Shown here: positions 5,870-21,076 of the stretch, in pieces
Layout: every line of letters begins with the position of its first letter
Numbering within the stretch: the stretch's first letter is position 1
Source: Thiotrichaceae bacterium
Lineage (GTDB): Bacteria; Pseudomonadota; Gammaproteobacteria; Thiotrichales; Thiotrichaceae
Assembly: GCA_023144895.1 (NCBI GenBank)
Contig: JAGLEV010000037.1
Location: 1 to 42,755, forward strand
DNA: 42,755 nt
Direction: 5' to 3'
Program-made: the position numbers and the translations under genes
Notes under the pieces: model-generated
Database searches by the model: none
Told to the model about the DNA's origin: nothing
Seen by the model: only the letters and a program-made list of their open reading frames with translations

Positions 5870-5879
5870 GTAGCACGAA

Positions 5880-6422
5880 ATGACAAGGTTACAAGATTTT
5901 TACCGGGAGACAGTTGCTCCACAGCTAGGCGAAAAGTTTGGCTATAAAAGCTCAATGGAAATCCCTAAAATCACTAAAATTTCCTTAAACATTGGTTTAG
6001 GTGAAGCGGTTGGTGATAAAAAAGTGGTTGAGCGTGCTGTTGCTGATATGGCTACAATTTGCGGTCAGAGACCAGTAGTTACAATCTCTCGTAAATCAAT
6101 TGCTGGATTTAAAATTCGTGATGGATGGCCGATCGGTTGTAAGGTAACATTACGTCGCGATACAATGTATGAATTTCTAGATCGTCTAGTTAACATTTCA
6201 TTACCACGTGTACGTGATTTTCGTGGTGTAAACCCAAAGTCTTTTGATGGACGTGGTAATTACAGCATGGGTATTACTGAGCAGATTATCTTTCCTGAGA
6301 TTGATTACGACAAGATTGATGCAATTCGTGGTATGGATATCAACATTACGACGACTGCTAAAACAGATGAAGAGGGAAGAGCATTGCTAGAAGCTTTTAA
6401 CTTCCCTTTCAAAAAGAAATAA
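5880..6422 (+). CDS. rplE: 50S ribosomal protein L5
   Basis: The 180-residue L5 protein binds 5S rRNA and contacts the P-site tRNA. Visible motifs are KITLNIG-like [16 protein letters not shown] (about residues 34-49), [15 protein letters not shown], and [18 protein letters not shown] near residue 125. In E. coli, S8 represses the spc operon by binding near the start of rplE. I could not confirm an equivalent hairpin at 5860-5900. Confidence 0.98.
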
Positions 6423-6435
6423 GGGAATAATAGCG

Positions 6436-6741
6436 ATGGCTAAGAAAAGTATGGTTGCGCGTGAACATAAGCGTATTAAGCTAGTTGCGAAGTATGCTGC
6501 AAAACGTGCAGAGCTTAAAGAGATCATTCGTAACCCAGAGACTCCCTACGAAGACTTAATGGTTGCTGTAGAAAAGCTTCAAAAGTTACCACGTGATAGC
6601 TCTTCAGTTCGTCTTCGACGTCGCTGTCAAATTACTGGACGTCCACATGGTGTTTATCGCAAGTTTGGTTTATCACGTAACAAACTAAGAGAACATGCAA
6701 TGCTAGGTGATGTTCCTGGTTTAACTAAGGCAAGTTGGTAG
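6436..6741 (+). CDS. rpsN: 30S ribosomal protein S14 (zinc-independent type)
   Basis: The 101-residue product is the long form of S14 that lacks the CxxC zinc-binding pairs of the short form. Conserved blocks are [20 protein letters not shown] and [17 protein letters not shown]. This contrasts with L36 in the same cluster, which keeps its metal ligands. The gene is followed immediately by an AGGAG ribosome-binding site for rpsH that overlaps its stop codon. Confidence 0.97.
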
Positions 6742-6752
6742 GAGCAGTAACT

Positions 6753-7151
6753 ATGAGTATGAGTGATCCCATTGCTGATATGTTGACCCGCATTCGTAAC
6801 GGTCAAATGGCAAAAAAACAAACAGTATCAATGCCTTCTTCTACTAAGAAAACAGCGATACTTGACGTGCTTAGTTCAGAAGGTTATATCGGCGGATATG
6901 ATATTGACGCTTCTAATAAGGCTAAGCCCGAAGCAATTGTAAAACTACGTTATTATCAAGGTCAGGCTGTTATCGCTAAGATTAGTCGTGTTAGCCGTCC
7001 TGGTTTACGTGTTTTTAAAAATAAAGATGAATTGCCATCAATATTAAATGGACTTGGCGTTGCTATTATATCAACGTCTAAGGGTGTGATGACTGACCGA
7101 GCTGCACGAACTGCGGGCGAAGGTGGCGAAGTTATCTGTGTCGTTGAATAA
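6753..7151 (+). CDS. rpsH: 30S ribosomal protein S8
   Basis: I choose the ATG at 6753 ([18 protein letters not shown]). It has AGGAG about 8 nt upstream and matches the family start; an upstream in-frame start would place the Shine-Dalgarno inside the coding region. The product is 132 residues. The C-terminal motif [20 protein letters not shown] is the 16S rRNA helix 21 binding region, and it is also the part used for spc-operon autoregulation in E. coli. Confidence 0.96.
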
Positions 7152-7166
7152 GATTACGAGTTTTTT

Positions 7167-7700
7167 ATGTCAAAGATAGCTAAAAAAGCCATTGAAATCC
7201 CAAGTGGAGTTGAATGCAAATTAGAAGGTCAAGCCATTAGCATTAAAGGTTCTAATGGTGCATTTGAGTACGTTATACATGATCTTGTTGAAATTAAACA
7301 AGATGATACTAAACTTACTTTTGCTGCCAAAGCTGACGAGCGTAAAGCTTGGGCAATGGCAGGAACTATGCGCCAATTAACGGCTAATATGATTACTGGT
7401 GTAAGTACTGGTTTTGAAAAGAAACTACAGCTTGTTGGTGTAGGTTATCGTGCAAAAGCAAACGGTAATAAAATCGACTTGACTCTAGGTTTTTCTCATC
7501 CTGTTGTACATGATATGCCAGAAGGTATCACTTGTGAAACACCAAGTCAGACAGAAATAACTATTAAAGGTGCGGATAAACAGCAGGTTGGACAAGTTGC
7601 GGCAGAAATACGCGCTTACAGACCTCCCGAGCCATATAAAGGTAAAGGTGTACGTTACTTAGGTGAGCGTATTATTCGTAAAGAAGCCAAAAAGAAATAG
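7167..7700 (+). CDS. rplF: 50S ribosomal protein L6
   Basis: The 177-residue L6 protein is built from two similar domains. The second contains [20 protein letters not shown] (about residues 87-106) and ends in the conserved [21 protein letters not shown]6 lies near the sarcin-ricin loop and factor-binding site. Spacing to rplR is 8 nt. Confidence 0.98.
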
Positions 7701-7708
7701 GTTTTGAG

Positions 7709-8062
7709 ATGAACAAGAAAGACTCAAGAATTCGTAGAGGCAAGAAGGCGCGTGCAAAAATGTTCGAGAAGAAGGTTACTCGTCTTTGTGTACACCGCAC
7801 ATCACGCCATATCTATGCACAGATTATTGATCCCATTGGCAATCAAGTTATTGCTTCTGCATCAACATTGGATAAATCAATCCAAGCTGATATTAAGAAT
7901 GGTGGAAATACTGATGCAGCGAAAGCAGTTGGATCTGCAATCGCAGAACGAGCGAAAGCAAAAGGCGTTGAACGTGTCGCATTTGACCGTTCTGGATTTA
8001 AATACCACGGTCGGGTAAGTGCGTTAGCCGATGCAGCCCGTGAATCAGGTCTGCAATTTTAA
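7709..8062 (+). CDS. rplR: 50S ribosomal protein L18
   Basis: The 117-residue L18 protein carries 5S rRNA into the large subunit with L5. It has the basic N-terminus [20 protein letters not shown], the [12 protein letters not shown] core and the typical end [19 protein letters not shown]. It lies between rplF and rpsE, as in other spc operons. Confidence 0.97.
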
Positions 8063-8071
8063 GGAAACATC

Positions 8072-8587
8072 ATGGCTAGAAACGATAATAACAGAAAAGA
8101 TCAGAACTCTGATGGCTTGATCGAAAAGTTGGTACACGTTAACCGTGTAGCAAAAGTAGTGAAAGGTGGACGTATTTTTGGTTTTACTGCTCTCACAGTA
8201 GTGGGTGATGGTAACGGTAAAGTTGGCGTTGGATATGGTAAGGCGCGTGAAGTTCCTATCGCAATCCAAAAGGCAATGGAAAAAGCACGTCGCAATATGG
8301 TGACTGTACCTCTTGTTGACGGAACGTTGCAGTATGCAATGACTGCTCGGTATGGTGCTGCTAACGTCTTTATGAAGCCTGCATCAGAAGGTACTGGTAT
8401 TATTGCTGGCGGTCCGATGAGAGCTGTATTTGAAGTAGTTGGTGTTAAAGATGTGCTGTCAAAGTGTAATGGCACACGTAATCCAATTAATGTAGTAAAG
8501 GCAACTATTCGTGGTCTTTCAGAAATGAAATCTCCTGAGATGTACGCAGCAAAGCGTGGCAAAACAGTTGAAGAAATTAGAGGTTAG
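8072..8587 (+). CDS. rpsE: 30S ribosomal protein S5
   Basis: The 171-residue S5 protein has its double-stranded-RNA-binding-like N-terminal domain, with [20 protein letters not shown] around residues 30-49. This is the loop altered in spectinomycin-resistant mutants elsewhere and is unremarkable here. The C-terminal domain contains [21 protein letters not shown]5 acts in decoding accuracy and with S3/S4 at the mRNA entrance. Confidence 0.98.
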
Positions 8588-8592
8588 TTTCA

Positions 8593-8775
8593 ATGAATAA
8601 AATTAGATTGACACTAGTCAGAAGCTTAAATGGCCGTTTAAAAAGTCATAAAGCATGTGCAGCAGGCTTGGGTATTCGTAAGATGCACCAAACTGTAGAA
8701 GTTATTGATACACCAGAAAACCGTGGCATGGTAAATAAGATTTCTTATATGCTAAAGGTTGTTGAGGCAGTTTAA
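8593..8775 (+). CDS. rpmD: 50S ribosomal protein L30
   Basis: The 60-residue L30 protein matches the bacterial length. The motif [20 protein letters not shown] follows the N-terminal strand [13 protein letters not shown]. The stop codon lies one base before the rplO start. Confidence 0.96.
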
Positions 8776-8776
8776 G

Positions 8777-9211
8777 ATGAGATTAAATACACTAAAGCCA
8801 GCTGAAGGTAGTACAACAGATCGTAAACGCGTTGGACGTGGAATCGGTTGTGGTAATGGTAAAACTTGTGGACGTGGTCATAAAGGTCAAAAGTCTCGCT
8901 CAGGTGGTTTTCATAAAACGGGTTTTGAGGGTGGTCAAATGCCGCTTCAAAAGCGTTTACCGAAAGTTGGTTTTAGCTCTCGGAAGAAACAGTATTCTGC
9001 TGAAATACGTTTAAATGAACTTGCATCAGTAGAAGCTGATGTTATTACATTAGATGTATTGAAAAAAGCAAAAATACTAGGTCATAAAATTAAAAAAGCT
9101 AAAGTGATCTTATCTGGAACGATAGATAAAGCAGTCACAGTTCAAGGTCTTGGCGCTACTAAGGGCGCTAAAGAAGCCATTGAAGCAGCCGGTGGAAAGA
9201 TCGACGCTTAG
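8777..9211 (+). CDS. rplO: 50S ribosomal protein L15
   Basis: I start this gene at the ATG at 8777 ([12 protein letters not shown]), one base after the rpmD stop, rather than at an upstream in-frame start inside rpmD. The 144-residue product has the extended basic N-terminal region [20 protein letters not shown] and [19 protein letters not shown]. It has a globular C-terminal domain ending [15 protein letters not shown]15 is a late-assembly 50S protein and is followed, as usual, by secY. Confidence 0.97.
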
Positions 9212-9236
9212 CTTATAAGAAAAAGAGATAAGGAAC

Positions 9237-10565
9237 GTGGCAAATACAAAAACAGCAGGAATGATGGGCAATCTGGCCGAAGTTAAAAGCCGAATTATAT
9301 TCGTACTTCTAGCATTGATTGTATACCGTATAGGTACCTATATTCCTGTTCCGGGTGTGAACCCACAGGCAATGTCTAGCTTCTTTGATGACAATAATGG
9401 CACTATTTTAGGTGTCTTTAATATGTTCTCAGGTGGAGCCTTACAGCGTTTCAGTCTTTTTGCATTAGGTATAATGCCTTATATATCAGCTTCTATCATT
9501 GTACAGTTGATGACTAAAGTTGTTCCTTATTTTGAACAGCTCAGTAAAGAAGGTGAAACAGGTAAACGTAAGATCACCCAATATACACGCTATGGTACGG
9601 TTGGATTAGCGCTCTTCCAGAGTATTGGAATTGCCTCTGCTTTAGGTAGTCAAGGTATTGCGATTGATCCTGGTTTTAGCTTTATTATCACAACAGTTGT
9701 TACTTTGGTAACAGGAACATTGTTCCTTATGTGGTTGGGTGAGCAAATTTCTGAACGTGGTATTGGTAATGGTATCTCGTTAATTATATTTGCTGGTATT
9801 GTTGCAGGCTTACCTAGTGCAATCGGTAGTACTTTAGAATTAGCAAACAAAGGTGAGATTTCACCCGGTGTTGTATTACTTATTGTCGTACTAGCCGTTG
9901 CAGTGACAGCCTTTGTAGTATTTGTAGAGCGTTCACAAAGACGTATTACAATTAACTATGCGAGTCGTCAACAAGGTCGGAAGATGATGCAAGGTCAATC
10001 AAGCTTTCTACCTTTAAAACTTAATATGGCAGGTGTAATTCCTCCTATATTTGCATCAAGTATTATCCTTTTCCCTGCAACATTAGGTAAATGGGCGAGT
10101 GGTGATGGTACAGGTGCATTATCTCAGTTTGTAAGTATGTTACAGCCAGGACAGCCAATGTATGTGTTGTTCTATGCTCTGGCTATTATCTTCTTTACAT
10201 TCTTCTACACGGCGTTGGTATTCAACTCTCGTGAGACAGCAGATAATCTTAAAAAATCAGGTGCGTTTATTCCAGGGATACGTCCAGGAAAGCAAACAAC
10301 GGCTTATATTGATACGGTAATGACACGCTTAACAGCCGTCGGTGCTATTTATATTACGCTAGTGTGTTTATTACCTGAGTTTTTAATACTCGGCTGGAAT
10401 GTACAGTTTTACTTTGGTGGCACGTCGCTACTAATTATTGTTGTTGTGGTAATGGACTTTCTTGCACAGTTGCAAGCACATACTATGTCACACCAGTATG
10501 AAGGCCTGATGAAAAAGGCAAACTTTAAATCAAGCAAACCTGGAAAATCAGGCAAGCGTAAATAA
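9237..10565 (+). CDS. secY: Protein translocase channel subunit SecY
   Basis: The 442-residue protein has ten predicted membrane segments, the size and layout of the SecYEG channel. Visible signatures are [16 protein letters not shown] (after segment 1), the plug and gate region [36 protein letters not shown], and [10 protein letters not shown]. The GTG at 9237 has AGGA only two bases upstream. The ATG at 9261 is an alternative and leaves the conserved [19 protein letters not shown] intact. SecY moves proteins across or into the inner membrane, driven by SecA or the ribosome. Confidence 0.96.
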
Positions 10566-10580
10566 CTTAAGGTGAATAGC

Positions 10581-10694
10581 ATGAAAGTACGTGCTTCTGT
10601 AAAAAAAATCTGTCGTAACTGTCGCGTAATTAAGCGTCGTGGTGTTGTTCGTGTGATTTGCACTGAACCTCGCCATAAGCAACGCCAAGGTTAA
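10581..10694 (+). CDS. rpmJ: 50S ribosomal protein L36 (zinc-binding type)
   Basis: A 37-codon frame reads [20 protein letters not shown] and then [17 protein letters not shown]. It is the normal length for L36 and keeps the Cys-x2-Cys and Cys-x4-His zinc ligands (C11, C14, C27, H32). It is 15 nt downstream of secY and has a GGTG ribosome-binding site. This position between secY and rpsM is standard in gammaproteobacteria. Confidence 0.97.
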
Positions 10695-10725
10695 AGCTAT
10701 TTTGTTAAATAGTGACACAAATATA

Positions 10726-10754
10726 TTGACTAATTTTATTAAGTCGGGTATCTT
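10726..10754 (+). promoter_or_regulatory. Candidate alpha-operon promoter before rpsM
   Basis: TTGACT (10726-10731) is followed after 17 nt by TATCTT (10749-10754), with rpsM starting 31 nt later. The -35 is one base from consensus and the -10 is weaker. The leader also contains a small GGG/CCC hairpin (about 10746-10760). In E. coli this leader is the target of S4 repression; I could not draw the pseudoknot with confidence. Confidence 0.4.
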
Positions 10755-10784
10755 CGCCCGTCTTGTATATTCTGGAGAGCTGTA

Positions 10785-11138
10785 ATGGCACGTATTGCGG
10801 GAATCAATATTCCGTTAAACAAACATACAGTAATTGGGTTAACAGCCATTTATGGTATCGGACTTTCACGATCTAAAAAGATTTGTGAGACAACAGGTGT
10901 AAGCCCTGCAACTAAGATTCGCGACTTATCGGAAGATGAAGTTGAGCGTATTCGTAAAGAAGTCAATGGCTTCATGGTTGAAGGTGACTTGCGTCGTGAA
11001 GTCTCCATGAGTATCAAACGTTTAATGGACCTCGGTTGTTATCGTGGTATACGCCACCGTCGTGGATTACCACTACGTGGACAACACACTAAAAATAACT
11101 CAAGAACTCGTAAGGGTCCTCGTAAACCTATCCGTTAA
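10785..11138 (+). CDS. rpsM: 30S ribosomal protein S13
   Basis: The 117-residue S13 protein begins [20 protein letters not shown]. It contains the helix-hairpin-helix-like [13 protein letters not shown] and the basic tail [20 protein letters not shown], which contacts P-site tRNA. A GGAGAG ribosome-binding site precedes the ATG. It is the first gene of the alpha cluster (rpsM-rpsK-rpsD-rpoA-rplQ). Confidence 0.98.
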
Positions 11139-11152
11139 TACAGGATTTTATA

Positions 11153-11545
11153 ATGGCAAAGCAGTCAGCAGCAAAACCACGTAGAAAGGCCAAAAAGTCT
11201 GTAGCAGACGGTATAGCACACGTGCATGCAACATTTAATAACACGATTGTTACAATCACTGATCGCCAAGGCAATGCACTAGCATGGGCTACAGCAGGTG
11301 GTTCTGGCTTTCGTGGATCACGTAAGAGTACACCTTTCGCGGCACAGGTTGCTGCAGAAAAGGCTGGTAAAGTAGCAAAAGAGTTTGGTATGAAAAACCT
11401 TGACGTTATGATCAAAGGTCCTGGACCTGGTCGTGAGTCAGCGGTTCGTTCACTAAACAACGTTGGCTTTAAAATTGGTAACATTATTGATGTTACTCCG
11501 ATACCACATAATGGTTGTCGTCCCCCTAAGAAACGCCGCGTGTAG
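11153..11545 (+). CDS. rpsK: 30S ribosomal protein S11
   Basis: The 130-residue S11 protein has the core [20 protein letters not shown] and the signature [13 protein letters not shown] near residues 86-98. It ends in the very conserved [14 protein letters not shown]11 lies on the 30S platform near the Shine-Dalgarno helix. It starts 14 nt after rpsM. Confidence 0.98.
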
Positions 11546-11564
11546 CTGCTTCGGAGAAATAATA

Positions 11565-12185
11565 ATGGCAAGATATACTGGACCCACTTGTAAACTAATG
11601 CGCCGTGAAGGCACTGATCTTTATCTTAAAGGTCGTGGAACTTCGCTCGAAAACAAGTGTAAAATGGATAAAATACCTGGTGTTCATGGCGAGCGCCGCT
11701 CACGTCCTACCGATTATGCTCTTCAGCTTCGTGAGAAGCAGAAAGTTAAGCGTATGTACGGAATCCTTGAAAAGCAATTCAGAAACTACTTCAAGCGTGC
11801 AGCACGTCAAAAAGGTTCTACAGGTGAAAACCTACTTACCCTTATCGAATGCCGCCTAGATAACGTTGTTTATCGTATGGGATTCGGTGCAACACGTGCA
11901 GAGTGTCGACAACTCACAAGCCATAAATCTGTTTTGGTTAATGGTCAGTCTGTTAATATTCCATCATACCAAGTACAAGCTGGTGATGTAATAAGCATTC
12001 GTGAAAAATCAAAAAAGCAAGTTCGTATCGTAGATGCGATGGCTATTATGGTACAGATGGGCTTCCCTGAGTGGGTTGAAGTTGACGATAAAAAACTGGA
12101 AGGCGTATTCAAAAGTGCTCCTGAAAGAAGTGAACTACCTGCAGAAATCAATGAGTCATTGATTGTTGAGCTGTACTCTAAGTAA
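11565..12185 (+). CDS. rpsD: 30S ribosomal protein S4
   Basis: I place the start at the ATG at 11565 ([20 protein letters not shown]), which has GGAG upstream. The open frame extends earlier but only into rpsK. The product is 206 residues, the usual length. The S4 RNA-binding domain is seen as [20 protein letters not shown] followed by [19 protein letters not shown]4 nucleates 30S assembly and in E. coli represses the alpha operon. Confidence 0.98.
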
Positions 12186-12217
12186 TAACGCGGGATATAA
12201 CTAGGATTTACTCTGTT

Positions 12218-13204
12218 ATGACTAATATTTCAGATCTACTGAAGCCTAATAAAATCGATATAAAAGATTTAGGTGCAAATACTTCTAGAATTACTCTAGA
12301 GCCACTAGAACGTGGTTTTGGACATACACTAGGAAATGCGTTTCGCCGTATTCTTTTGTCTTCATTGCCAGGCACTTCAGTAACAGAAGTTCAGATCGAA
12401 GGCGTCAAGCATGAGTATGAATCAATTGATGGCGTACAAGAAGATGTTTTAGATATTATGCTCAACCTTAAAGAGCTGTCTATTCGTCTTAATGCAAAAG
12501 ACCAAACAGAGCTAACTTTAAGTAAGCAAGGTCCTGGTGTTGTTACTGCTGGTGATATACAGCTAGATCATGATGCTGAGGTTATTGATCCTAATCAGGT
12601 GATTGCACACTTAACGACTGATACTACGTTGAACATGACGATGACGGTTACTACAGGTAAAGGTTATCAGCCAATCACTGCGAGACGTGGTGCGGATGCT
12701 GCTGATTTACCCGTAGGTACTTTGATTATTGATGCAAGTTTTAGTCCATTACGCCGTGTAATCTACACTGTTGATACAGCACGTTCTGGTGAGCGTTCTG
12801 ATATGGATAAGCTTATCCTTGAGTTAGAAACAGATGGTTCAGTTGATCCAGAAGAGGCAATTGCACTTTCTGCACAGATTCTACAAGATCAATTAGCAGT
12901 GTTCTTTAATCTTACCATTGAATTACCTGTTATTGAAGAAGAGCCAACGACAGAAATTGATCCTGAGTTACTTCGTCCTGTTGATGATCTTGAGTTAACC
13001 GTACGTTCTGCAAATTGCTTGAAAGCAGAGCAAGTTAACTATATTGGTGATCTTGTACAGAAGACTGAAACTGAGCTACTTAAAACTCCTAATCTTGGTA
13101 AAAAATCACTGACTGAGATTAAAGATATTTTGGGTACTCGTGGCTTCACATTAGGTACTAAGCTTGAGAACTGGCCTCCTGTTGTACTGGAAGATGCAAG
13201 CTAA
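12218..13204 (+). CDS. rpoA: RNA polymerase alpha subunit
   Basis: The 328-residue protein has the normal size. The N-terminal dimerisation domain shows [20 protein letters not shown] at about residues 31-50. The linker near residue 240 is acidic ([14 protein letters not shown]). The C-terminal domain has [20 protein letters not shown], containing the arginine that contacts UP elements, and the helix-hairpin-helix [16 protein letters not shown]. Alpha assembles the core enzyme and is the contact for many activators. Confidence 0.99.
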
Positions 13205-13265
13205 ATAAAAACAATTCGCTATTGATTGATAAATCAATAACTCGATTTAAGATAGGTTAAAGATA

Positions 13266-13631
13266 ATGCGACACCGTAAAATAGGCAGACAACTTAGTAG
13301 AAATAGTAGTCATCGTAAAGCAACCTTACAAAGCTTGACTGTTGCTATTCTTCGCTATGAAGCGATTAAAACTACTGTAGCAAAGGCAAAAGAACTCCGT
13401 CGTGTAGCTGAGCCTCTTATTACTCGTGCAAAAATAGATAGCGTACATAACCGTCGTATCGTTTTTGCTCGCACAAGAGACGAAGAAGTAACAGCAAAGT
13501 TATTTACAGAACTTGGTCCTCGTTATGCTACTCGCCCTGGTGGTTATTTGCGTATTATTAAATGTGGCTATCGTGCGGGTGATAATGCACCAATGGCATA
13601 TGTTGAATTAGTTGATCGGCCTGAAGATTAA
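13266..13631 (+). CDS. rplQ: 50S ribosomal protein L17
   Basis: The 121-residue L17 protein begins [19 protein letters not shown]. It ends with the typical [20 protein letters not shown] region and a short acidic tail. It is the last gene of the alpha cluster and is followed 19 nt later by a strong terminator. Confidence 0.98.
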
Positions 13632-13650
13632 TTTTTTCAGAAAGCACAAT

Positions 13651-13690
13651 AAAAAAAGCCACTATTGAAACAATAGTGGCTTTTTTTTGT
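13651..13690. terminator. Bidirectional intrinsic terminator after rplQ
   Basis: A perfect 17-bp inverted repeat (13651-13667 with 13671-13687, AAA loop) has a GC-containing core (gccactattg/caatagtggc). It is flanked by A and T runs, so it works in both directions. It ends the ribosomal block on the + strand and the HNH gene on the - strand. Confidence 0.95.
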
Positions 13691-13723
13691 TTACAATATA
13701 TGAAAAATTAAAGACCTAATCAT

Positions 13724-14290
13724 TTATAACAGCTGACTATTTTTAGGAAATCGCATCTTTAAAAAACGTTGTTGATCACCAATAATACGGTGACTATTTT
13801 TCAAATAAAGATATTCAGCCCAATTAGGTGCAAAGGGCACAGCTAAAAGGAAATGACCCCATTCTTCAGGGGTGCGATTGGCTTTTTTACTATTACAGTC
13901 TTTACATGCAGTCGCACTATTTGTCCATGACTCATCACCTAATCGAGATTTTGGAATAATATGATCCCGTGTTAAATAACGTGATGAAAAAATTTCACCA
14001 CAATATAAACACATATTAGCATCTCGTTTAAAAAGACCTTTATTCGTTACTACTGGGCTATAATTTTTTGCCAAGCGATTGCCAGCAACCTTTTCTTTGG
14101 TTAATATAATCGAACTAATAGTGACTTCAGAGTGTTGACCTGATAAGCGATTATAGCCACCATGAAAAGTAAATTCTTCATCGCCTAAATTAGCAATAAT
14201 ACGATCAGCTGCTTCCATACTAATGGCACTTCGGTAAGTAATCCAACTACTGGGATTGCCTGCGATATCAAGTTGTAATATAGGAATCAT
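13724..14290 (-). CDS. HNH endonuclease family protein
   Basis: The 188-residue protein has a clear HNH nuclease fold. There is a zinc-binding CLYC at residues 94-97, the catalytic RDH at 108-110 (LTRDHIIPKSRLGDESW), an Asn near 124, and CKDCN at 129-133. The N-terminal half (residues 1-85) is not recognisable. Such stand-alone HNH proteins occur in many gammaproteobacterial chromosomes as well as in phages, so the domain alone does not show mobility. It converges on rplQ at a shared terminator and forms the left edge of the accessory island. Confidence 0.9.
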   Translation of the reverse strand: MIPILQLDIAGNPSSWITYRSAISMEAADRIIANLGDEEFTFHGGYNRLSGQHSEVTISSIILTKEKVAGNRLAKNYSPVVTNKGLFKRDANMCLYCGEIFSSRYLTRDHIIPKSRLGDESWTNSATACKDCNSKKANRTPEEWGHFLLAVPFAPNWAEYLYLKNSHRIIGDQQRFLKMRFPKNSQLL

Positions 14291-14485
14291 GGGTTTACCT
14301 CAAGCATAACTATAGAATAAATAATAAATAACTTAGTAGAACCAATACCTTCAAAAAAATGAAAACATCTTATTTTTGAGGAATTTACATACTTATAAAT
14401 CATTGATTTATGTGAATCAAGCAATGTTATTTTTGGCTCAAATAAAAATTATCAAAAATATTAAGCACTATTTATTATATATTCT

Positions 14486-14511
14486 TAAAAAATCGATTTA
14501 ATATAATCGAT
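14486..14511 (-). terminator. Terminator at the end of the tRNA array transcript
   Basis: On the - strand a 7-bp hairpin (14505-14511 with 14492-14498, 6-nt loop) is followed by six T (14487-14492 on the complement). The stem is AT-rich, so efficiency may be modest. The stretch 14291-14485 between it and the HNH gene is AT-rich DNA in which I see no gene or RNA. Confidence 0.55.
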
Positions 14512-14662
14512 AAAACTATTAGAATCACGTGTTTGGAGTTTAGTTAAATGAAATTGGTTCCCTCTAAAGTTCTATACGGTTATTAGAAGGGGATAGACTT
14601 ATCAAGTCGATAGGTGAAGCTCATCCTATTGGTAGGGTCGCTTCACTCTGTCAATCAATAGA
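14512..14662 (-). ncRNA. Structured 3' tail of the tRNA array, possible decayed tRNA
   Basis: On the - strand, gtgaagc pairs perfectly with gcttcac (14640-14646 with 14614-14620), enclosing a CCTA/TAGG mini-hairpin. Downstream, a stem with loop TTGATAA resembles a tRNA-Ile(GAT) anticodon arm. A TTCTA/TAGAA stem then leads to GGGAACCA near 14556. I cannot close a full cloverleaf, so this is either a degraded tRNA or a specific 3' structure of the array transcript. Confidence 0.4.
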
Positions 14663-14739
14663 TGGTGTGCCAGATAGGATTCGAACCTATTGCCCTCAGA
14701 TTAGAAGTCTGATGCTCTATCCTAATGAGCTACAAGCAC
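14663..14739 (-). tRNA. tRNA-Arg(TCT)
   Basis: A complete cloverleaf with an encoded CCA (14663-14665). The acceptor stem GTGCTTG/CTGGCAC has one T-T mismatch, and the discriminator is A. The D-loop keeps GG. The anticodon stem is TCAGA/TCTGA with loop CTTCTAA (anticodon at 14703-14705). The T-loop is the canonical TTCGAAT. It would read AGA/AGG. It is the last tRNA of the array and one of four with a normal T-loop. Confidence 0.9.
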
Positions 14740-14744
14740 AAAAA

Positions 14745-14820
14745 TGGTGGGTCTGGTCAGGTATGATCTGACAATCTTCGAATTATGAACTCGCTGCTTT
14801 ACCCGTTAAGCTACAGACCC
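14745..14820 (-). tRNA. tRNA-Met/Ile2(CAT), first copy, non-canonical T-loop
   Basis: The acceptor GGGTCTG/CAGACCC is perfect, with discriminator A and encoded CCA. The D-stem GCTT/AAGC encloses a GG-containing loop. The anticodon loop is TTCATAA (anticodon 14785-14787); its stem has one mismatch and one wobble. The T-stem GTCAG/CTGAC is perfect, but the loop is ATCATAC, with A54 and T58 in place of T54 and A58. The CAT anticodon could be elongator Met or, if modified by TilS, Ile reading AUA. Confidence 0.8.
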
Positions 14821-14829
14821 ATATAAAAA

Positions 14830-14904
14830 TGGTTACCGCGTCTGGCTACGATCCAGAACTGATGGAGTCAAAGTCCATAGTGCTACCTGTTACACTACAC
14901 GGCA
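14830..14904 (-). tRNA. tRNA-Gln(TTG), non-canonical T-loop
   Basis: The acceptor TGCCGTG/CGCGGTA pairs over seven positions with two wobbles, discriminator A and encoded CCA. The anticodon stem ATGGA/TCCAT is perfect, with loop CTTTGAC (anticodon 14869-14871). The D-loop keeps GG. The T-stem TCTGG/CCAGA is perfect but the loop is ATCGTAG, again A54 with T58. It would read CAA and, by wobble, CAG. Confidence 0.82.
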
Positions 14905-14905
14905 T

Positions 14906-14992
14906 TGGCGGAAGAGAGGGGATTCGAACCCCTGAATCCTTTACAGGATCACTGATTAGCAATCAGTTGCATTACCACTTTGCTACACTTCC
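14906..14992 (-). tRNA. tRNA-Ser(GCT)
   Basis: A class II tRNA of 87 nt with a long variable arm (ATCCT/AGGAT stem). The acceptor GGAAGTG/CTCTTCC has one T-T mismatch, and the discriminator is G, as expected for Ser. The anticodon stem ACTGA/TCAGT carries loop TTGCTAA (anticodon 14958-14960). The T-loop is canonical TTCGAAT with a perfect AGGGG/CCCCT stem. It would read AGC/AGU. Confidence 0.93.
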
Positions 14993-15045
14993 AAATAATA
15001 ATCAGAACAGCAGGTCTCGAATCGACGACTTTCTGACTTCGATAA
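14993..15045 (-). other. Spacer with tRNA T-arm-like remnant
   Basis: This 53-nt spacer is much longer than the 1-13 nt gaps typical of most neighbours. On the - strand it holds a TCAGAA/TTCTGA stem enclosing GTC-GATTCGA-GAC, which resembles a degraded T-arm. No acceptor or anticodon arm can be built. A remnant of a lost tRNA is likely, but processing structure is an alternative. Confidence 0.35.
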
Positions 15046-15120
15046 TGGTGCAAATGGCGAGTTTTGATCTCGCTACCTCCGCCTTGATAGGGCGGTGCTT
15101 CCAATTGAAGCTACATCTGC
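15046..15120 (-). tRNA. tRNA-Asp with A34 anticodon (ATC), non-canonical T-loop
   Basis: The acceptor GCAGATG/CATTTGC pairs at all seven positions with one wobble, discriminator A, encoded CCA. The anticodon stem CCGCC/GGCGG is perfect and the loop is CTATCAA, so the anticodon (15086-15088) is ATC. Bacterial tRNA-Asp normally has GTC with queuosine at 34; A34 is otherwise almost confined to Arg(ACG). The D-loop is short (CAATTGG), with C at position 14. The T-stem GCGAG/CTCGC is perfect but the loop is ATCAAAA (A54). Confidence 0.78.
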
Positions 15121-15121
15121 T

Positions 15122-15195
15122 TGGATGGGGGATCAGGAATTGAACCTGAATAGCTAGAATATGAGTCTAGAGTTCTACCGTTAAACTATCCCGCA
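15122..15195 (-). tRNA. tRNA-Met/Ile2(CAT), second copy
   Basis: The acceptor TGCGGGA/TCCCCCA has one C-C mismatch and an unusual T discriminator before the encoded CCA. The D-loop keeps GG. The anticodon stem CTAGA/TCTAG is perfect with loop CTCATAT (anticodon 15161-15163). The T-arm is canonical (TCAGG-TTCAATT-CCTGA). It differs widely from the first CAT tRNA, so it is not a recent copy. One of the pair may be the AUA-reading Ile2 tRNA. Confidence 0.82.
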
Positions 15196-15204
15196 TTAAA
15201 ATAT

Positions 15205-15265
15205 TTCTCTCAAAAGGATTCCAACCAGTTTCATACCAGCCTTATCCTATTTGACCATGAGAGAA
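15205..15265 (-). pseudogene. Truncated tRNA-like element lacking a T-arm
   Basis: A 61-nt unit closes with a perfect TTCTCTC/GAGAGAA stem. It follows with a D-arm-like stretch (GGTCAAATAGGATAAGGC), a CTGG/CTGG hairpin containing TATGAAA, and a T-loop-like TTGGAAT with only two flanking pairs. No CCA follows. Seven perfect acceptor pairs argue against random sequence, yet the arms do not form a cloverleaf. It is a degraded tRNA or a minimal tRNA mimic. Confidence 0.45.
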
Positions 15266-15275
15266 TGGGTTAAAA

Positions 15276-15351
15276 TGGTACATCCGACCAGGAACGATCT
15301 GGCATTGATAGCGTGAAAGGCTACAGTCCTAACCAATTAGACGACGGATGT
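15276..15351 (-). tRNA. tRNA-Glu(TTC), non-canonical T-loop
   Basis: The acceptor ACATCCG/CGGATGT is perfect, discriminator A, encoded CCA. The D-arm GTCT/GGAC has a GG-containing loop. The anticodon stem GTAGC/GCTAT carries loop CTTTCAC (anticodon 15315-15317). The T-stem GCCAG/CTGGT is paired, with loop ATCGTTC (A54, T58). It would read GAA/GAG. Confidence 0.84.
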
Positions 15352-15359
15352 ATAAAAAA

Positions 15360-15434
15360 TGGTTGCTCTGGTGGGTACTGACCCCACAACCACGCCCTTA
15401 TCAAGAGCGGACTCTACCATTGAGTTACAGAGCA
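15360..15434 (-). tRNA. tRNA-Ile(GAT), G54 T-loop
   Basis: The acceptor TGCTCTG/CAGAGCA is perfect, discriminator A, encoded CCA. The D-stem ACTC/GAGT has a GG-containing loop. The anticodon stem CGCTC/GGGCG carries loop TTGATAA (anticodon 15400-15402). The T-stem GTGGG/CCCAC is perfect, but the loop is GTCAGTA, with G at both 54 and 58. It is the only array member with this loop. Confidence 0.82.
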
Positions 15435-15439
15435 AAATA

Positions 15440-15515
15440 TGGTGCGTCTGCTCGGCTACGATCCGAGATCTGCTAGATTAAAAGTCTAGTGTTCTGCCTG
15501 TTGAACTACAGACGC
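15440..15515 (-). tRNA. tRNA-Lys(TTT), non-canonical T-loop
   Basis: Every stem is perfect: acceptor GCGTCTG/CAGACGC, D GTTC/GAAC, anticodon CTAGA/TCTAG, T CTCGG/CCGAG. The discriminator is A and CCA is encoded. The anticodon loop is CTTTTAA (anticodon 15480-15482). The T-loop is ATCGTAG, identical to that of the Gln tRNA, with A54 and T58. A molecule so well paired is unlikely to be a decaying gene. Confidence 0.86.
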
Positions 15516-15519
15516 AAAT

Positions 15520-15594
15520 TGGCTCCTAGGGTGAGATTCGAACTCACATATCTTTGATTAACAGTCAAATCGCCTACCACTGGCGCACCTAGGA
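15520..15594 (-). tRNA. tRNA-Asn(GTT)
   Basis: The first tRNA of the array after the leader. The acceptor TCCTAGG/CCTAGGA is perfect, discriminator G, encoded CCA. The D-stem CGCC/GGCG, anticodon stem TTTGA/TCAAA with loop CTGTTAA (anticodon 15560-15562) and T-arm GTGAG-TTCGAAT-CTCAC are all canonical. It would read AAC/AAU. Confidence 0.94.
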
Positions 15595-15599
15595 ACAGT

Positions 15600-15949
15600 A
15601 TCCTGCGAGGTATAAACCTCATGCCTTTCATGTCGCCACTACTTAGCTGTTTTTTTGGATTTAGGAGCTACCCTTACCCTTCAAACTTCGTTATCGCCCT
15701 TGCGTATTAGCTCGGACTTGTAACGCACCCATTGTTCTTCGTGATTCAGTTAGTTTTTCATGGCGCACCACTTAGCAAATGTGGGCATTAGTTAATACCA
15801 TGCTGACCTTACTCACTATCACCGAGCGTCCCGATGACTTGAGAACTGGGCTTGCGTAAATAGACCGATGACTCGGTGGGGATATGCAGGATATTCCCCT
15901 TTATCACTGATTATAGTGAATATCATTAAGACGTTACGCAGCCTTGTGA
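15600..15949 (-). ncRNA. Structured untranslated leader of the tRNA array (candidate large ncRNA)
   Basis: About 350 nt without a convincing reading frame lie between the promoter at 15956-15985 and the first tRNA. On the - strand a long-range helix pairs 15934-15943 with 15849-15859 (10 bp, one bulge). It encloses three hairpins: TCACT/AGTGA, GGGGA/TCCCC with a TA extension, and ACCGA/TCGGT. The CACCGAG strand can instead pair with CTCGGTG further on, a possible switch. Near the tRNA a GAGGT-TTAT-ACCTC hairpin (15607-15620) stands alone. A near-repeat (15626-15647 and 15756-15776) shares TTTCATG and ACTTAGC on the + strand. Placement beside tRNAs recalls GOLLD and ROOL RNAs, but I cannot match it to either. 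Confidence 0.6.
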
Positions 15950-15955
15950 TTCCAA

Positions 15956-15985
15956 ATTGTAAAAGTACATCCTGCTGTATATCAA
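15956..15985 (-). promoter_or_regulatory. Promoter of the tRNA array and leader
   Basis: On the - strand TTGATA (15980-15985) is followed after 18 nt by TACAAT (15956-15961). Each hexamer is one base from consensus. Transcription would start near 15949 and run through the leader, the ten tRNAs and the tail to the terminator at 14486-14511. It lies just downstream of the terminator at 16000-16040, consistent with an independent unit. Confidence 0.65.
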
Positions 15986-15999
15986 CAGGTGATGGGCAT

Positions 16000-16040
16000 A
16001 AAAAAACCCAGTTGCCTTTGTAAGCACAAACTGGGTTTTT
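16000..16040 (-). terminator. Terminator of small-ORF module A
   Basis: An inverted repeat AAACCCAGTT/AACTGGGTTT is flanked by A and T runs, with a loop containing GTGCTTACAAAGGC on the - strand. It can act in both directions. Its stem and loop resemble the terminator at 16318-16358 (CCCAGT, GTTTGTGC), so the two probably share ancestry. It insulates the tRNA array from upstream transcription. Confidence 0.85.
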
Positions 16041-16091
16041 AAACTCAGAAGGTGCTTTATCAGCAACCCTCCGAAGGACTTCGTTGGAGGA

Positions 16092-16277
16092 TTACATTAT
16101 GTTATGTTTCTTAATTTCTTTTATTTTATGAAGAGCATAAGGTTTATTAATATTTAATTTACTTTGTTTATTACTGCTATGTAATGAACATATATTAGTC
16201 GATAGCAGGCGCAAGTTAGCCATAAGCCGCATAATAAGCGGTTGACCAAAATGGAATGTTATCTGCTGTTGTCTCAT
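16092..16277 (-). CDS. Small hypothetical protein, module A
   Basis: A 61-codon frame starts MRQQQITFHFGQPLIMRLMA with AAGGA placed 8 nt before the ATG. It is basic in its C-terminal half (NKQSKLNINKPYALHKIKEI). I do not recognise it. It is followed by a CCTCC/GGAGG hairpin and then the terminator at 16000-16040. It begins only about 40 nt after the module B terminator, and no good promoter is visible in that gap, so it may depend on read-through. Confidence 0.45.
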   Translation of the reverse strand: MRQQQITFHFGQPLIMRLMANLRLLSTNICSLHSSNKQSKLNINKPYALHKIKEIKKHNIM

Positions 16278-16317
16278 TAAAAAATCCTTTATGACTTACT
16301 ATTAAAATATTGGGCAA

Positions 16318-16358
16318 TAAAAAAGCCCAGTCTGTTTGCACAAACCGGGCTTTTTTAT
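16318..16358 (-). terminator. Terminator of small-ORF module B
   Basis: AAAAAAGCCC(A/G)GT pairs with AC(C/T)GGGCTTTTTT around a loop containing TTTGTGCAAACAG. Long A and T runs flank it, so it is bidirectional. A second hairpin, GGAAGGTG/CACCTTCC (8 bp, 16362-16384), sits between it and the module B stop codon. Confidence 0.88.
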
Positions 16359-16401
16359 TGCTCGGAAGGTGCTTGAACCACCTTCCAAAAATTCTGAAAG
16401 G

Positions 16402-16578
16402 TTAGTTCACCTTGATCTTCATATCTATACTAGGCTGACTTATCGGTTTATTGTGTTCATTATTAATCACAATAATTAAAGAACTTGAATTGCCCATAAG
16501 CATAGTTCTTGAGTTCAGTTGCGTATATTCGCAGCTTGTCTCAGAGTTTCTTTGCAGTTGGATGATGGCTAAATTCAT
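16402..16578 (-). CDS. Small hypothetical protein, module B
   Basis: I choose the ATG at 16578 (MNLAIIQLQRNSETSCEYTQ, 58 residues) because AAGGA lies 4 nt upstream. A longer frame to 16671 would run through the promoter. The protein has no clear domain; the middle (SSSLIIVINN) is hydrophobic. It is transcribed away from the XRE gene and has its own promoter and terminator. A small phage-type or toxin-antitoxin gene is possible but unsupported. Confidence 0.5.
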   Translation of the reverse strand: MNLAIIQLQRNSETSCEYTQLNSRTMLMGNSSSLIIVINNEHNKPISQPSIDMKIKVN

Positions 16579-16630
16579 AAAGTCCTTAAAAAATAAGTAA
16601 CATGCGTTTGTTGCTATGTTGATGTAATGT

Positions 16631-16658
16631 ATTATAGGAGAATGAAACAAGAATGCAA
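16631..16658 (-). promoter_or_regulatory. Promoter of module B
   Basis: On the - strand TTGCAT (16653-16658) is followed after 16 nt by a perfect TATAAT (16631-16636). The start of transcription would be about 45 nt before the module B ATG. The palindrome at 16663-16685 lies directly upstream of the -35, where a regulator could act. Confidence 0.65.
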
Positions 16659-16662
16659 GTAT

Positions 16663-16685
16663 AAAAACCAAGATTCTTGGTTTTT
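16663..16685. promoter_or_regulatory. Perfect 10-bp palindrome between module B and the XRE gene
   Basis: AAAAACCAAG (16663-16672) and CTTGGTTTTT (16676-16685) form a perfect inverted repeat with a 3-nt centre. It lies between the divergent promoter of module B and the XRE-type regulator at 16803. An operator for that regulator fits the position; a weak bidirectional terminator is the alternative, though the loop is short. Confidence 0.5.
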
Positions 16686-16802
16686 ATATATTTGTATTGA
16701 TTTATTTTTCAATTAAAACAATGTGATATGATTGAAAAGAATTAATAAAATAGAGTGGTGAATTATTGTTATGAACGGCTTTATGACGGTGAGTAGTTAA
16801 TT

Positions 16803-17408
16803 ATGCAAGACAAAACAATCAAAGAATATCGCCAAATTGTAGGAGGGCGTATACGGCAAGCACGTATTATGGCGGGTTTTGAAACTATTGTTTCATTAGC
16901 AGAAAGCTTTACAGATTGGGGGGTTAGTCGTTTAGGTAACTATGAAAATGGTACTTCGATGCCCAACCCTGTCGATATTAAACGCATTGCAAAAACAACA
17001 GACACTAGCCCTTGTTGGATTATGTTTGGTATTGGCAGTATTCGCTCCGAGTCACGCGACCTTCAAGCGGTACGTCATCAAAACTTCTCCCAGCTATTTG
17101 AAAAACTCTCATCAGCGGAAAAAATAAGCCTGCGTGGAAAGATTAAGCTCAAGCCCAAAGAAGTAACGAATCACCTTAAAAATCCTTTTCTAAAAATTAC
17201 AGCAAGCCTGTGTCGTAAAATTGAAAAACACTTAGGTAAAAATAAAGGCTGGATGGAAGAGCAACATATTGATAATGATGGACTCTGTCATTTTTTCCCT
17301 GATGATATTCGTGAAGTAATGACAATTTATTCAGACTTAGATAGTAGTGGTCGAATGATATTGCTAGAAACAGCGCGTACGATTCAAAAACATTGTGTGC
17401 CTAAATAA
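16803..17408 (+). CDS. XRE-type helix-turn-helix regulator
   Basis: The 201-residue protein begins with a Cro/CI-type helix-turn-helix (residues 14-72: GGRIRQARIMAGFETIVSLA, then WGVSRLGNYENGTSMPNPVD and a trailing helix). A second half (about 90-155) has a basic, helix-rich segment (SLCRKIEKHLGKNKGWMEEQ) that could be a second DNA-binding unit. There is no LexA-like protease domain. The ribosome-binding site is weak. It is divergent from module B across a palindrome, the arrangement of a phage-type repressor, and probably controls that unit. The direct target is inference. Confidence 0.8.
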   Translation: MQDKTIKEYRQIVGGRIRQARIMAGFETIVSLAESFTDWGVSRLGNYENGTSMPNPVDIKRIAKTTDTSPCWIMFGIGSIRSESRDLQAVRHQNFSQLFEKLSSAEKISLRGKIKLKPKEVTNHLKNPFLKITASLCRKIEKHLGKNKGWMEEQHIDNDGLCHFFPDDIREVMTIYSDLDSSGRMILLETARTIQKHCVPK

Positions 17409-17424
17409 ATTTAACGTCCCATGC

Positions 17425-17733
17425 TTATTTTTTATTACTCCTCTTTGCGAGCCGCTGTTTCATTGCATCAATCCCACTATTCTCATCGACAGGCATAATG
17501 ATTTGGTAGTTTATTGCTTGTAAAGAGTGTGAATATTCTGCTTGGCTAGGATCTATAATCGTATAGTTCTGTCCCGTCCAATCCTTTAATGCTTTGTGAA
17601 AGTCAGGTTTCTTTTCACTGTCTATATTGGCAGATAAAATGGTCAAGCCACTATCAACCCGAATGCCACATTGACTAATAGCGAAGAGATAGCAAAGTCG
17701 GCGGATTGTTTCAGTATTTGGACAATGATTCAT
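17425..17733 (-). CDS. Hypothetical protein
   Basis: A 102-residue frame, MNHCPNTETIRRLCYLFAIS at the start and a basic end (MKQRLAKRSNKK). A ribosome-binding site GGTGAA lies 7 nt upstream. I do not recognise a domain; no signal peptide or membrane segment is evident, and the mix of residues looks like a real soluble protein. It converges on the XRE gene with a 16-nt gap and diverges from the membrane protein at 17821. It marks the right edge of the accessory island. Confidence 0.6.
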   Translation of the reverse strand: MNHCPNTETIRRLCYLFAISQCGIRVDSGLTILSANIDSEKKPDFHKALKDWTGQNYTIIDPSQAEYSHSLQAINYQIIMPVDENSGIDAMKQRLAKRSNKK

Positions 17734-17820
17734 AACCGTTCACCTTTAAAGTCACAAGCCATTATAAGTCATTTCTGATATGCTTTCATTTTCTTGTATT
17801 CTATACAATGAGGGAGTTAC

Positions 17821-18213
17821 ATGATGACTGATGAAAAAAGTAATATTGTTACCGCAAAGCAAGCAAGGGGAGCTGCTAAGATCTTTAATTATGGAACAAT
17901 AGTTTCTGTATTGATCCCTTTTCCTTTATTTATTTTTTGGTTTGGAGCATCGATGTTTGTCTATAGTTTGCATCGACATCATCCCAATCCAAGAGTTGGA
18001 CACTATACACAGGTAGCTGCCTATATATACTATACGCTTGCGGGTGTTTTTGTACCGATTCTAACTTTTGCACCCAAGGGATTTTTTGTAAACTATTGGT
18101 GGCTACTTTGGGGTGGGGCAATACTTGGTGTCGTACCTATTGCCATTTATCAAATATATAAAGCCCATTCAGAAGAGTGGCATGATAGTGAAATTAAAAA
18201 GGAATTTCTATGA
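17821..18213 (+). CDS. Small membrane protein translationally coupled to bioB
   Basis: The 130-residue protein has three likely membrane segments (about 26-50, 65-84 and 92-112) and short polar ends. A His-rich cytoplasmic or periplasmic turn lies between the first two ([11 protein letters not shown]). GGGAG precedes the ATG pair at 17821/17824. The last codon overlaps the bioB start as ATGA, so the two are co-translated. I do not know a family for it. A role linked to biotin, such as a transporter accessory, is speculation based on coupling alone. Confidence 0.75.
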
Positions 18214-19178
18214 CAGCAGTAAGAATGGATTGGAGCTTGGATGAAATAGAAGCATTATTTGCGCTTCCTTTTAATGATCTACTTTTTAAAGCACAACAAA
18301 TACATCGTGAAAACTTTAATCCTAATGAGGTGCAAGTGAGTACCTTATTAAGTATTAAAACAGGAGCTTGCCCTGAAGACTGTAGTTATTGCTCACAAAG
18401 TGCGCGTAATGATACAGGGCTAGAGAGAGAGCGTTTATTGCCCTTATCAGAAGTGATTAAATCAGCTCAAGAAGCCAAAGACAATGGTGCAACTCGTTTT
18501 TGTATGGGAGCAGCATGGCGCAATCCTACAGATAAAAGCTTGAATCATGTCGTTGATATGGTCTCAGCCGTTCGAGAAATGGGCATGGAAACCTGTGTTA
18601 CTTTGGGTATGTTGAGTGAACCACAAGCAGGGCGTTTAAAGGATGCAGGTTTAGATTATTACAATCACAATCTAGATACCTCTCCTGAGTTTTATGGTGA
18701 AGTCATTACCACGCGGAATTATCAAGATCGTTTAGATACTCTGAGTCATGTACGTGATGCAGGAATTAATGTCTGTGCAGGGGGTATTCTGGGTTTGGGT
18801 GAATCGCCTAGAGATCGTGCACGTTTACTGCAAGAGCTAGCCAATATGCCTAAGCATCCAGAATCTGTGCCTATTAATGAGCTTGTGCCTATTCCTGGAA
18901 CACCGTTAGCGAATAATAAAGCGATTGATGCTATTGATTTTGTGCGGTGTATTGCAGTAGCAAGAATTCTCATGCCCTGTACTTATGTGCGTTTGTCCGC
19001 AGGTCGCACGGATATGTCAGATGAAACACAGGCATTGTGCTTCTTTGCTGGGGCAAACTCTATGTTTTATGGTGATCGTTTGTTAACAACCGATAATCCA
19101 ACAGAATCCTCTGATGCACAATTATTTTCAACCCTAGGTTTGCAAGCTGAAAAAGCCGCATCACCCGCAACGGTATAG
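18210..19178 (+). CDS. bioB: Biotin synthase
   Basis: The 322-residue radical-SAM enzyme inserts sulfur into dethiobiotin, the last step of biotin synthesis. The SAM cluster cysteines are C54, C58 and C61 in [15 protein letters not shown]. Downstream blocks include [28 protein letters not shown], and [13 protein letters not shown], and the ladder continues to [24 protein letters not shown] lies before the ATG. No other biotin gene is nearby. The gene is followed 11 nt later by mnmG. Confidence 0.98.
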
Positions 19179-19189
19179 TTAGTAATCTC

Positions 19190-21076
19190 ATGTTTTATAG
19201 TAAATCTTACGATGTTATCGTCATTGGTGGCGGTCATGCTGGCACAGAAGCTGCCTTAGCCGCTGCACGTATGGGAATGCAAACCTTATTGTTGACCCAT
19301 AATATCGATACTCTGGGGCAGATGAGCTGTAACCCTGCAATTGGTGGTATTGGCAAAGGTCATTTAGTTAAAGAAATTGATGCACTGGGTGGCATTATGG
19401 GGAAAGCTGCAGATGCTGCTGGCATTCAATTTCGTACATTAAATGCACGTAAAGGTCCAGCAGTCCGTGCAACACGGGCACAATCAGATCGTGTGTTGTA
19501 TCGAGCCGCAATTCAAGAGGCGATTCAACAGCAAGAAAACCTCGACCTATTTATGCAAGCAGTCGATGACTTGCTGATTGAAAATAATCAGGTGGTGGGT
19601 GTGCAGACCCAAATGGGGATGAGGTTTCATGCTAAAGCCGTTGTGTTGACGGTGGGAACTTTCCTTGCTGGAAAAATACATATAGGAGCTAGCCAATTTA
19701 GTGGAGGTAGAGCAGGGGATCAGCCTTCGATTGCATTGTCTGAGCGCTTGCGTGATCTTGATTTGCGTGTCGGTCGCTTGAAAACAGGAACACCTGCACG
19801 TTTAGATAGTCGAACCATTGACTATAGCCAACTTCAAGAGCAACCTGGAGATGAGCCTCGACCTGTATTTTCCTATTTGGGAACAGATAAAGATCACCCA
19901 CAACAAGTTTCTTGCCACCTCACCTATACGAATACTGAAACACACGAAATTATTACTGAAGGCATTCCACGTTCACCACTTTTTACGGGAGCAATTGAAG
20001 GTATAGGACCACGTTATTGCCCATCAATAGAAGATAAAGTAGTCCGCTTCGCAGATCGTGACCAACATCAGATTTTCTTAGAGCCAGAAGGTTTGAATAG
20101 CTATGAAGTTTATCCTAATGGTATTTCAACGAGTTTACCTTTTGATATTCAAATAAAATTTATTCGTTCTATTGCAGGCTTGGCGGATGTGCATATTACT
20201 CGACCAGGTTATGCGATTGAATATGATTACTTTGATCCACGTGATTTACAACAAAGCTTACAAACTGAAGCCATTGCGGGTTTGTATTTTGCGGGTCAAA
20301 TCAATGGTACGACAGGTTATGAAGAAGCTGCTGCCCAAGGTTTATTGGCGGGTTTAAATGCAGCATTACAAGTTCAAGGTAAAAAACCATGGATTCCACT
20401 ACGAAGTGAAGCCTATATTGGGGTGTTAGTGGATGACTTGACAACAAATGGTACTATCGAGCCTTATCGTATGTTTACAAGTCGTGCAGAATATCGTTTG
20501 TTATTGCGTGAAGATAATGCGGATTTGCGATTAACAGAAATAGGCTATCACTTAGGTTTAGTGAATGAAGAGCATTGGCAAGCTTTTGTGGTAAAACGTG
20601 AAGCTGTTGAGCAAGAAAAACAACGTTTGCAAGCAACCTTAATTCGACCATCCATGTTATCAACCGAGCAATCCAACAGAATTTTTGAGCGTCCATTAAC
20701 ACGGGAATATCGAGTGGATGAATTATTGCGTCGCCCAAATGTCAGTTATGCTGATTTAATGCAGATTGATGGTGTAGGGCCTGGCTTGGCAGAAAAAGAT
20801 AGGGCTGATCAAGTAGAAATTCAATTTAAGTATGCAGGTTATATTGATCGTCAACAGGATGAAATCGACAAACAATTACGCCATGAAAAAACGGTATTGC
20901 CAAATAATATTAATTATGATGATGTTCATGGTTTATCGAATGAAGTATGTCAAAAATTAATGACAGTGCGACCAGAAAGTATTGCTCAAGCAAATCGTAT
21001 TTCTGGAGTCACGCCAGCGGCAATATCATTGCTTCTGGTTTATTTGAAAAAACGAAAACTATTAAATAAAACATGA
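19190..21076 (+). CDS. mnmG: tRNA uridine-5-carboxymethylaminomethyl modification enzyme MnmG
   Basis: The 628-residue FAD enzyme (GidA), with MnmE, modifies U34 of tRNAs reading split boxes (Lys, Glu, Gln, Arg, Leu). The N-terminal dinucleotide motif is [20 protein letters not shown] (residues 10-29), followed by [20 protein letters not shown]. The helical C-terminal MnmE-binding region is present. Its tRNA targets include anticodons seen in the array 3.6 kb away, though the linkage is probably coincidental. It overlaps rsmG by 4 nt. Confidence 0.98.

Follow-up and report, generated by a model that had tools for sequence, protein, structure and literature searches.

The pair formed by positions 54 and 58 of the T-loop is regarded as a nearly universal signature of tRNAs. 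Exceptions have reportedly been obtained by laboratory selection in E. coli, where Zagryadskaya 2003 recovered suppressor tRNAs with G54-A58 or G54-G58 from a library with a randomised T-loop; we know of no A54-U58 among those clones. In eukaryotes, initiator tRNA and tRNA-Ala(AGC) carry A54-A58 together with a purine at position 60 and A48, and A54-A58 pairs are stated as not observed in bacterial tRNAs (PMC7566577). In our literature search A54-U58 did not turn up as a recurrent class in any paper, although subscription papers were poorly covered and an earlier description is possible.

The ICE arrays of Acidithiobacillus are examples of tRNA arrays carried on mobile elements. Mycobacterium array units likewise place an extra set of tRNAs on an acquired island (PMC5966550), as does the locus described here, which differs from bacterial and mobile-element arrays in its small size of ten tRNAs and in lacking integrase and conjugation genes. 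Phage tRNA gene clusters, as summarised in the abstract of a survey (Morgado and Vicente 2019, PMC6409571), and the tRNA region of T5 resemble the locus in being dense, multi-isotype arrays on one strand, with CCA and nearby HNH genes. That abstract makes no mention of T-loop swaps, and the stretch of T5 examined differs from our array in having no A54 tRNA.

The window, by which we mean the whole 42,755-nucleotide stretch analysed, comes from a Thiotrichaceae bacterium whose 2.64-Mb genome (103 contigs) belongs to a set of 63 family members. It is chromosomal, running from the S10/spc/alpha ribosomal operon to rplQ and then, past an insertion, through bioB, mnmG, rsmG and parAB. Ten tRNA-like genes lie on the minus strand at 14663-15594, in the gene order Asn, Lys, Ile, Glu, Met2, "Asp," Ser, Gln, Met1, Arg. 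A preliminary description of this DNA had reported all ten and listed their T-loops, and both statements agree with the sequence. All ten exceed the gathering score of Rfam RF00005 (48.5 to 66.6 bits against a threshold of 29), a family whose membership does not require T54-A58, and ARAGORN called nine, its sole miss being the A54-A58 "Asp" gene. The expectation that gene finders would miss the A54 members therefore proved wrong. We consider it probable that the array is an acquired phage-type cluster and that its non-canonical members belong to a recurrent, mainly phage-borne set with an alternative 54-58 pair.

Four members have a canonical T-loop: tRNA-Asn(GUU) (15520-15594; TTCGAAT), the first gene of the array, tRNA-Ser(GCU) (14906-14992), tRNA-Met2(CAU) (15122-15195; TTCAATT), and tRNA-Arg(UCU) (14663-14739; TTCGAAT). 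The A54-T58 swap is found in another four, namely, tRNA-Met1(CAU) (14745-14820; ATCATAC, a loop also present in 5 viral tRNAs), tRNA-Gln(UUG) (14830-14904; ATCGTAG, present in 3), tRNA-Glu(UUC) (15276-15351; ATCGTTC, present in 24), and tRNA-Lys(UUU) (15440-15515; ATCGTAG). tRNA-Ile(GAU) (15360-15434; GTCAGTA, a loop shared with 4 viral tRNAs, including one Ile-GAT) has G54-G58, which reportedly also replaces the reverse-Hoogsteen pair in Zagryadskaya 2003 clones, and the gene with anticodon AUC ("Asp"; 15046-15120; ATCAAAA) has A54-A58. All five unusual loop sequences occur in viral tRNAs. It had been proposed that half of the members carry a swapped pair, with T58 in four of five A54 cases. 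The second count is exact (Met1, Gln, Glu, and Lys), and the first is right as to a real deviation and wrong in its extent, since six of the ten depart from T54-A58 and four are true swaps.

Around these positions the array is conservative. T55, C56, and an encoded CCA are kept, and the D-loop GG is present in all ten tRNAs rather than in nine, as first counted. The T-stems are perfect, so that the earlier statement that stems are perfect stands for these; a mismatch lies elsewhere in each of Met1, Met2, Arg, and Ser. We define an A54-U58 class by A54 with T58, T55 and C56, and a perfect T-stem, to which Met1, Gln, Glu, and Lys belong. These four have C60 or G60 and not the A60 usual in phages, where A60 is common in the class without being obligatory. 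The set of GluRS identity elements established in E. coli is present in tRNA-Glu: U11-A24, U13-G22, A46, and a variable loop of four bases. The "Asp" gene has A34 (anticodon AUC), A38, A73, and the D-loop CAATTGG, lacking A14 and A21. Its A34, A38, and A73 do not match the usual AspRS determinants known from E. coli, so it may not be a working tRNA-Asp, and from its sequence a normal tRNA-Asp identity and efficient charging are both unlikely. Among the other 37 tRNAs of the host, 36 have T54-A58 and the last has a TTC loop that ARAGORN placed in the wrong register; the T-loop deviation is thus confined to the array. Two neighboring A54-T58 arms did not arise in any of 100 shuffles of the window.

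A pattern of two such neighboring T-arms matched 103 viral stretches, 85 of which contained at least one with a fully paired T-stem, and ARAGORN found arrays of 11 or more tRNAs in 15 of the 17 of these viral contigs on which it was run. Because this sample had been selected for the swap, a second was fetched without any T-loop criterion, relying solely on patterns for Lys and Ile tRNAs that cover the D-arm and the anticodon loop. A detector blind to the T-loop (it uses the stems, U8, U33, and CCA) identified 1,227 unique viral tRNAs there and none in reversed-sequence controls. Some ARAGORN entries without CCA show a shifted T-loop; they were excluded from these CCA-anchored counts. The 54/58 states were T-A in 1,109, A-T in 69, A-A in 30, G-G in 8, C-A in 7, T-G in 2, and C-G and C-C in one each. 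The preliminary description had made 54/58 covariation a test of its reading, and the covariation is there: all 69 tRNAs with T58 have A54, and T54-T58 is absent from the 1,227. When each state was counted once per 80%-identity cluster, 26 A-T, 17 other A54, and 0 other T58 cases remained (Fisher p = 4e-33). Leaving out Ile-GAT, A-T accounts for 32 of 1,140 viral tRNAs (2.8%). A bias of ARAGORN as the cause of the missing T-T state was ruled out by mutation of 200 tRNAs, which showed the program to be nearly indifferent to positions 54 and 58.

Position 60 is part of the same coupling. The two largest mutual-information values were those of 54-60 (0.32) and 54-58 (0.31); shuffled data reached at most 0.03. 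In the viral set, position 60 is T or C in 98% of T-A loops and A in 29 of 30 A-A and 8 of 8 G-G loops; in A-T loops, the commonest of which is ATCGTTA, it is A in 47 of 69, C in 19, and G in 3. Close relatives switch between loop classes while the rest of the molecule remains about 90% identical; for example, TTCGATT and ATCGTTA alternate in Ile-GAT tRNAs that are 91% identical elsewhere. The phage A-A class shares A48 and a purine at position 60 with the eukaryotic A54-A58 tRNAs (PMC7566577), whose A58, as a point of difference, is m1A. The phage combination of A54-A58, A48, and A60 matches that of eukaryotic tRNA-Ala, an apparent convergence. Within the leading 15-48 types, 27 of 60 A-A viral tRNAs had A48, compared with about 3% of T-A tRNAs.

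That the stems, T55-C56, D-loop GG, and CCA are kept while positions 54, 58, and 60 covary points to a structural alternative. We postulate that the alternative pair replaces the T54-A58 reverse-Hoogsteen pair and closes the T-loop, that A54-U58 (or A54-A58) would stack on G53-C61, and that T55 and C56 would dock with the D-loop GG, so that the tRNA fold is kept. The change most probably began with A54-A58 replacing T54-A58, generally alongside A60, and A58 then gave way to T58; A-A is common and T-T was never seen, which makes A-A a plausible intermediate. Judged by their sequences, the array tRNAs most likely do function, using a different pair to close the T-loop. They would be transcribed from one promoter, processed, and charged, and could serve in translating genes of the acquired element or as replacements for host tRNAs that have been cut. 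The strict coupling of the swap across many isotypes and unrelated phages indicates that the elbow can be closed another way, and the variants occurring naturally in culturable phages offer a means to probe the actual requirements of T-loop modification enzymes, EF-Tu, RNase P, and T-loop nucleases.

Many isotypes, in phages not related to one another, carry the swap, and cellular genomes almost entirely lack it. Swapped tRNA-Phe genes were found in Aeromonas phages LAh_6, Akh-2, and AhP_Mru1 and in Bacillus phage CM1, and a swapped tRNA-Met was found in Pseudomonas phage Astolliot; the stretches of T5, EcS1, and CHI14 examined had none. Phage KVP40 (1-20000), which carries no tRNA annotation, was left out. 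Among viral Ile-GAT tRNAs, 37 of 87 are swapped, and a single Ile-GAT cluster is kept across 52 contigs. The Ile-GAT swap pattern gave 2 matches in 299 Pseudomonadota genomes, neither with a proper T-stem, leaving no real case. For Lys-UUU, even viral contigs seldom show the swap (2 of 99); in the same 299 genomes the pattern gave 4 matches, with a paired T-stem in two, this window and one other genome (G201), and a canonical Lys tRNA was found in 58 of 60 genomes. The two-arm pattern also matched at least 118 loci in bacterial genome contigs, but the detector confirmed two A-T tRNAs at just two of these (L161 and L220), the rest being chance matches. Both are MAG contigs of about 9 to 11 kb bearing tRNA arrays with swapped members, and they are possibly phage contigs binned with bacteria.

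The array lies in an insertion of about 3.8 kb (13632-17424), bounded by rplQ on one side and by a conserved small gene (17425-17733) on the other. The corresponding gap after rplQ is about 0.1 kb in relatives, where homologues of the genes at 17425-17733 and 17821-18213 and then bioB come next, and none of 29 relatives' loci has a tRNA between rplQ and the next conserved gene. A junction that is so short and tRNA-free in relatives places the array on an acquired island, and we envisage the horizontal acquisition of a phage-type tRNA cluster that inserted between rplQ and the bioB neighborhood. The insertion encodes an HNH endonuclease (13724-14290, minus strand), downstream of the array and on its strand, and an HTH repressor-like protein (16803-17408, plus strand); no integrase, phage structural, or conjugation genes were found in it, and no att-type direct repeats of 9 or more shared bases were found near its two ends. 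It thus falls outside the definitions of a prophage or an integrative element. Homologues of the HNH gene, at 40 to 45% identity, occur at other places in family genomes.

A phage or phage-like source of the array is likely from these comparisons, in which its tRNAs reached at most 75% identity to any tRNA compared. In equal-sized samples, Gln, Ser, Glu, and Met2 were clearly nearer to viral tRNAs, and Arg, Asn, Asp, and Met1 were not; with identities this low and viral closeness limited to four tRNAs, a phage origin of this copy is something we can only infer. A similarity search with the whole array against phage and plasmid records gave single-tRNA matches covering up to about 8% of the query, and no homologous array was found in the 63 family genomes.

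The array could be viewed as decaying junk with random loop changes, as the degenerate "Asp" gene and two inter-tRNA stretches resembling tRNA remnants might suggest (14993-15045 and 15196-15275, with T-arm- and acceptor-like pieces recognized by eye; Rfam made no tRNA call there at E up to 1). Against this stand the 54/58/60 covariation and the retention of perfect T-stems, T55, C56, D-loop GG, and encoded CCA. Decay is already contradicted for the class of swapped tRNAs, and for the array we consider it very improbable; the earlier proposal of paired substitution rather than decay is upheld by strong 54/58 covariation in independent viral tRNAs that keep their stems and D-loop GG. Neutral drift deserves far more weight, and we rate it at somewhat less than an even chance. 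The pair would then be merely tolerated, and phage or island tRNAs under weaker selection would have reached it via A54-A58 without benefit, which makes drift a variant of our preferred explanation that departs from it on the question of benefit alone. The A54-A58 intermediate does exist (30 cases in the unbiased set), as do G-G, C-A, and C-G pairs and clusters of mixed loop class. However, a narrow consensus, ATCGTTA or ATCGTAA with A60, dominates, and the Ile-GAT cluster is kept in 52 contigs, which together suggest some constraint.

The preliminary description suggested that the tRNAs avoid TrmA, and selection against m5U54 methylation might favor A54 tRNAs that mature faster or escape recognition. 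A54 cannot be a TrmA substrate by established chemistry, and both TruB and TrmA additionally serve as chaperones for tRNA, working on its elbow (PMC11301382). However, the best TrmA match in the host scores 82 bits against a cut-off of 335 and is RlmD by NCBIfam, and no TrmFO exceeds its cut-off, the match being MnmG in the window. T54 may therefore be unmethylated in this host, and escape from methylation cannot easily explain the array there. TrmA exceeds the cut-off in only 3 of the 63 family genomes, all of one genus; moreover, 4 of the 10 array members retain T54, and A54-A58 would suffice for escape without T58. We give TrmA avoidance very little credence, although the swap might be relevant to TrmA in other hosts. 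Escape from T-loop-specific tRNases, with the 54/58 change removing a cut site while keeping the fold, seems improbable as well, if slightly less so. It would resemble the way in which other phage tRNAs withstand tRNA-cutting defenses through a changed sequence or a high dosage. The CDI toxin CdiA-CT E479 cleaves tRNA within the T-loop, at the step from the conserved T to pseudouridine (PMC9086364), phage tRNAs rescue phages from tRNA-cutting defenses (PMC11555353), and the swaps are mostly in phage arrays. Yet only some tRNAs within one array are swapped, and the isotype bias, with Ile-GAT far ahead, corresponds to no known nuclease. None of the present results links a T-loop-cutting toxin or phage tRNA counter-defense to the swap, and we know of no phage defense that cuts the T-loop. 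A broader idea is that A54-U58, with A54-A58 and G54-G58, forms a distinct, selected T-loop architecture of phage tRNAs, which would need no T-loop modification enzymes and would shield these tRNAs from having their T-loop modified or cleaved by the host. It is unlikely on present evidence, though less so than either specific escape.

A candidate promoter for the array, recognized as the best match to the consensus (TTGATA-18-TACAAT; 10 of 12 positions), lies on the minus strand at 15985-15956, directly after a T-tailed hairpin, and would give a leader of about 360 nucleotides. The 391 nucleotides upstream of the array have mild structure only (z of -2.3), and the z of -8 over 806 nucleotides is probably due to terminator hairpins. 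A very strong 20-pair hairpin with a T tail is found at 16314-16361, between the array leader and position 16402, and a second long T-tailed hairpin is found at about 16000-16050. A strong terminator-like hairpin, likewise called by consensus match, closes the HNH end (13687-13651). As a further observation on the phage genes, the swapped tRNA-Phe of LAh_6 (9752-9826; ATCGTTA) is unannotated, whereas an identical copy in phage 4_4572 is annotated, and its 17-base T-arm recurs in Bacillus phage CM1.
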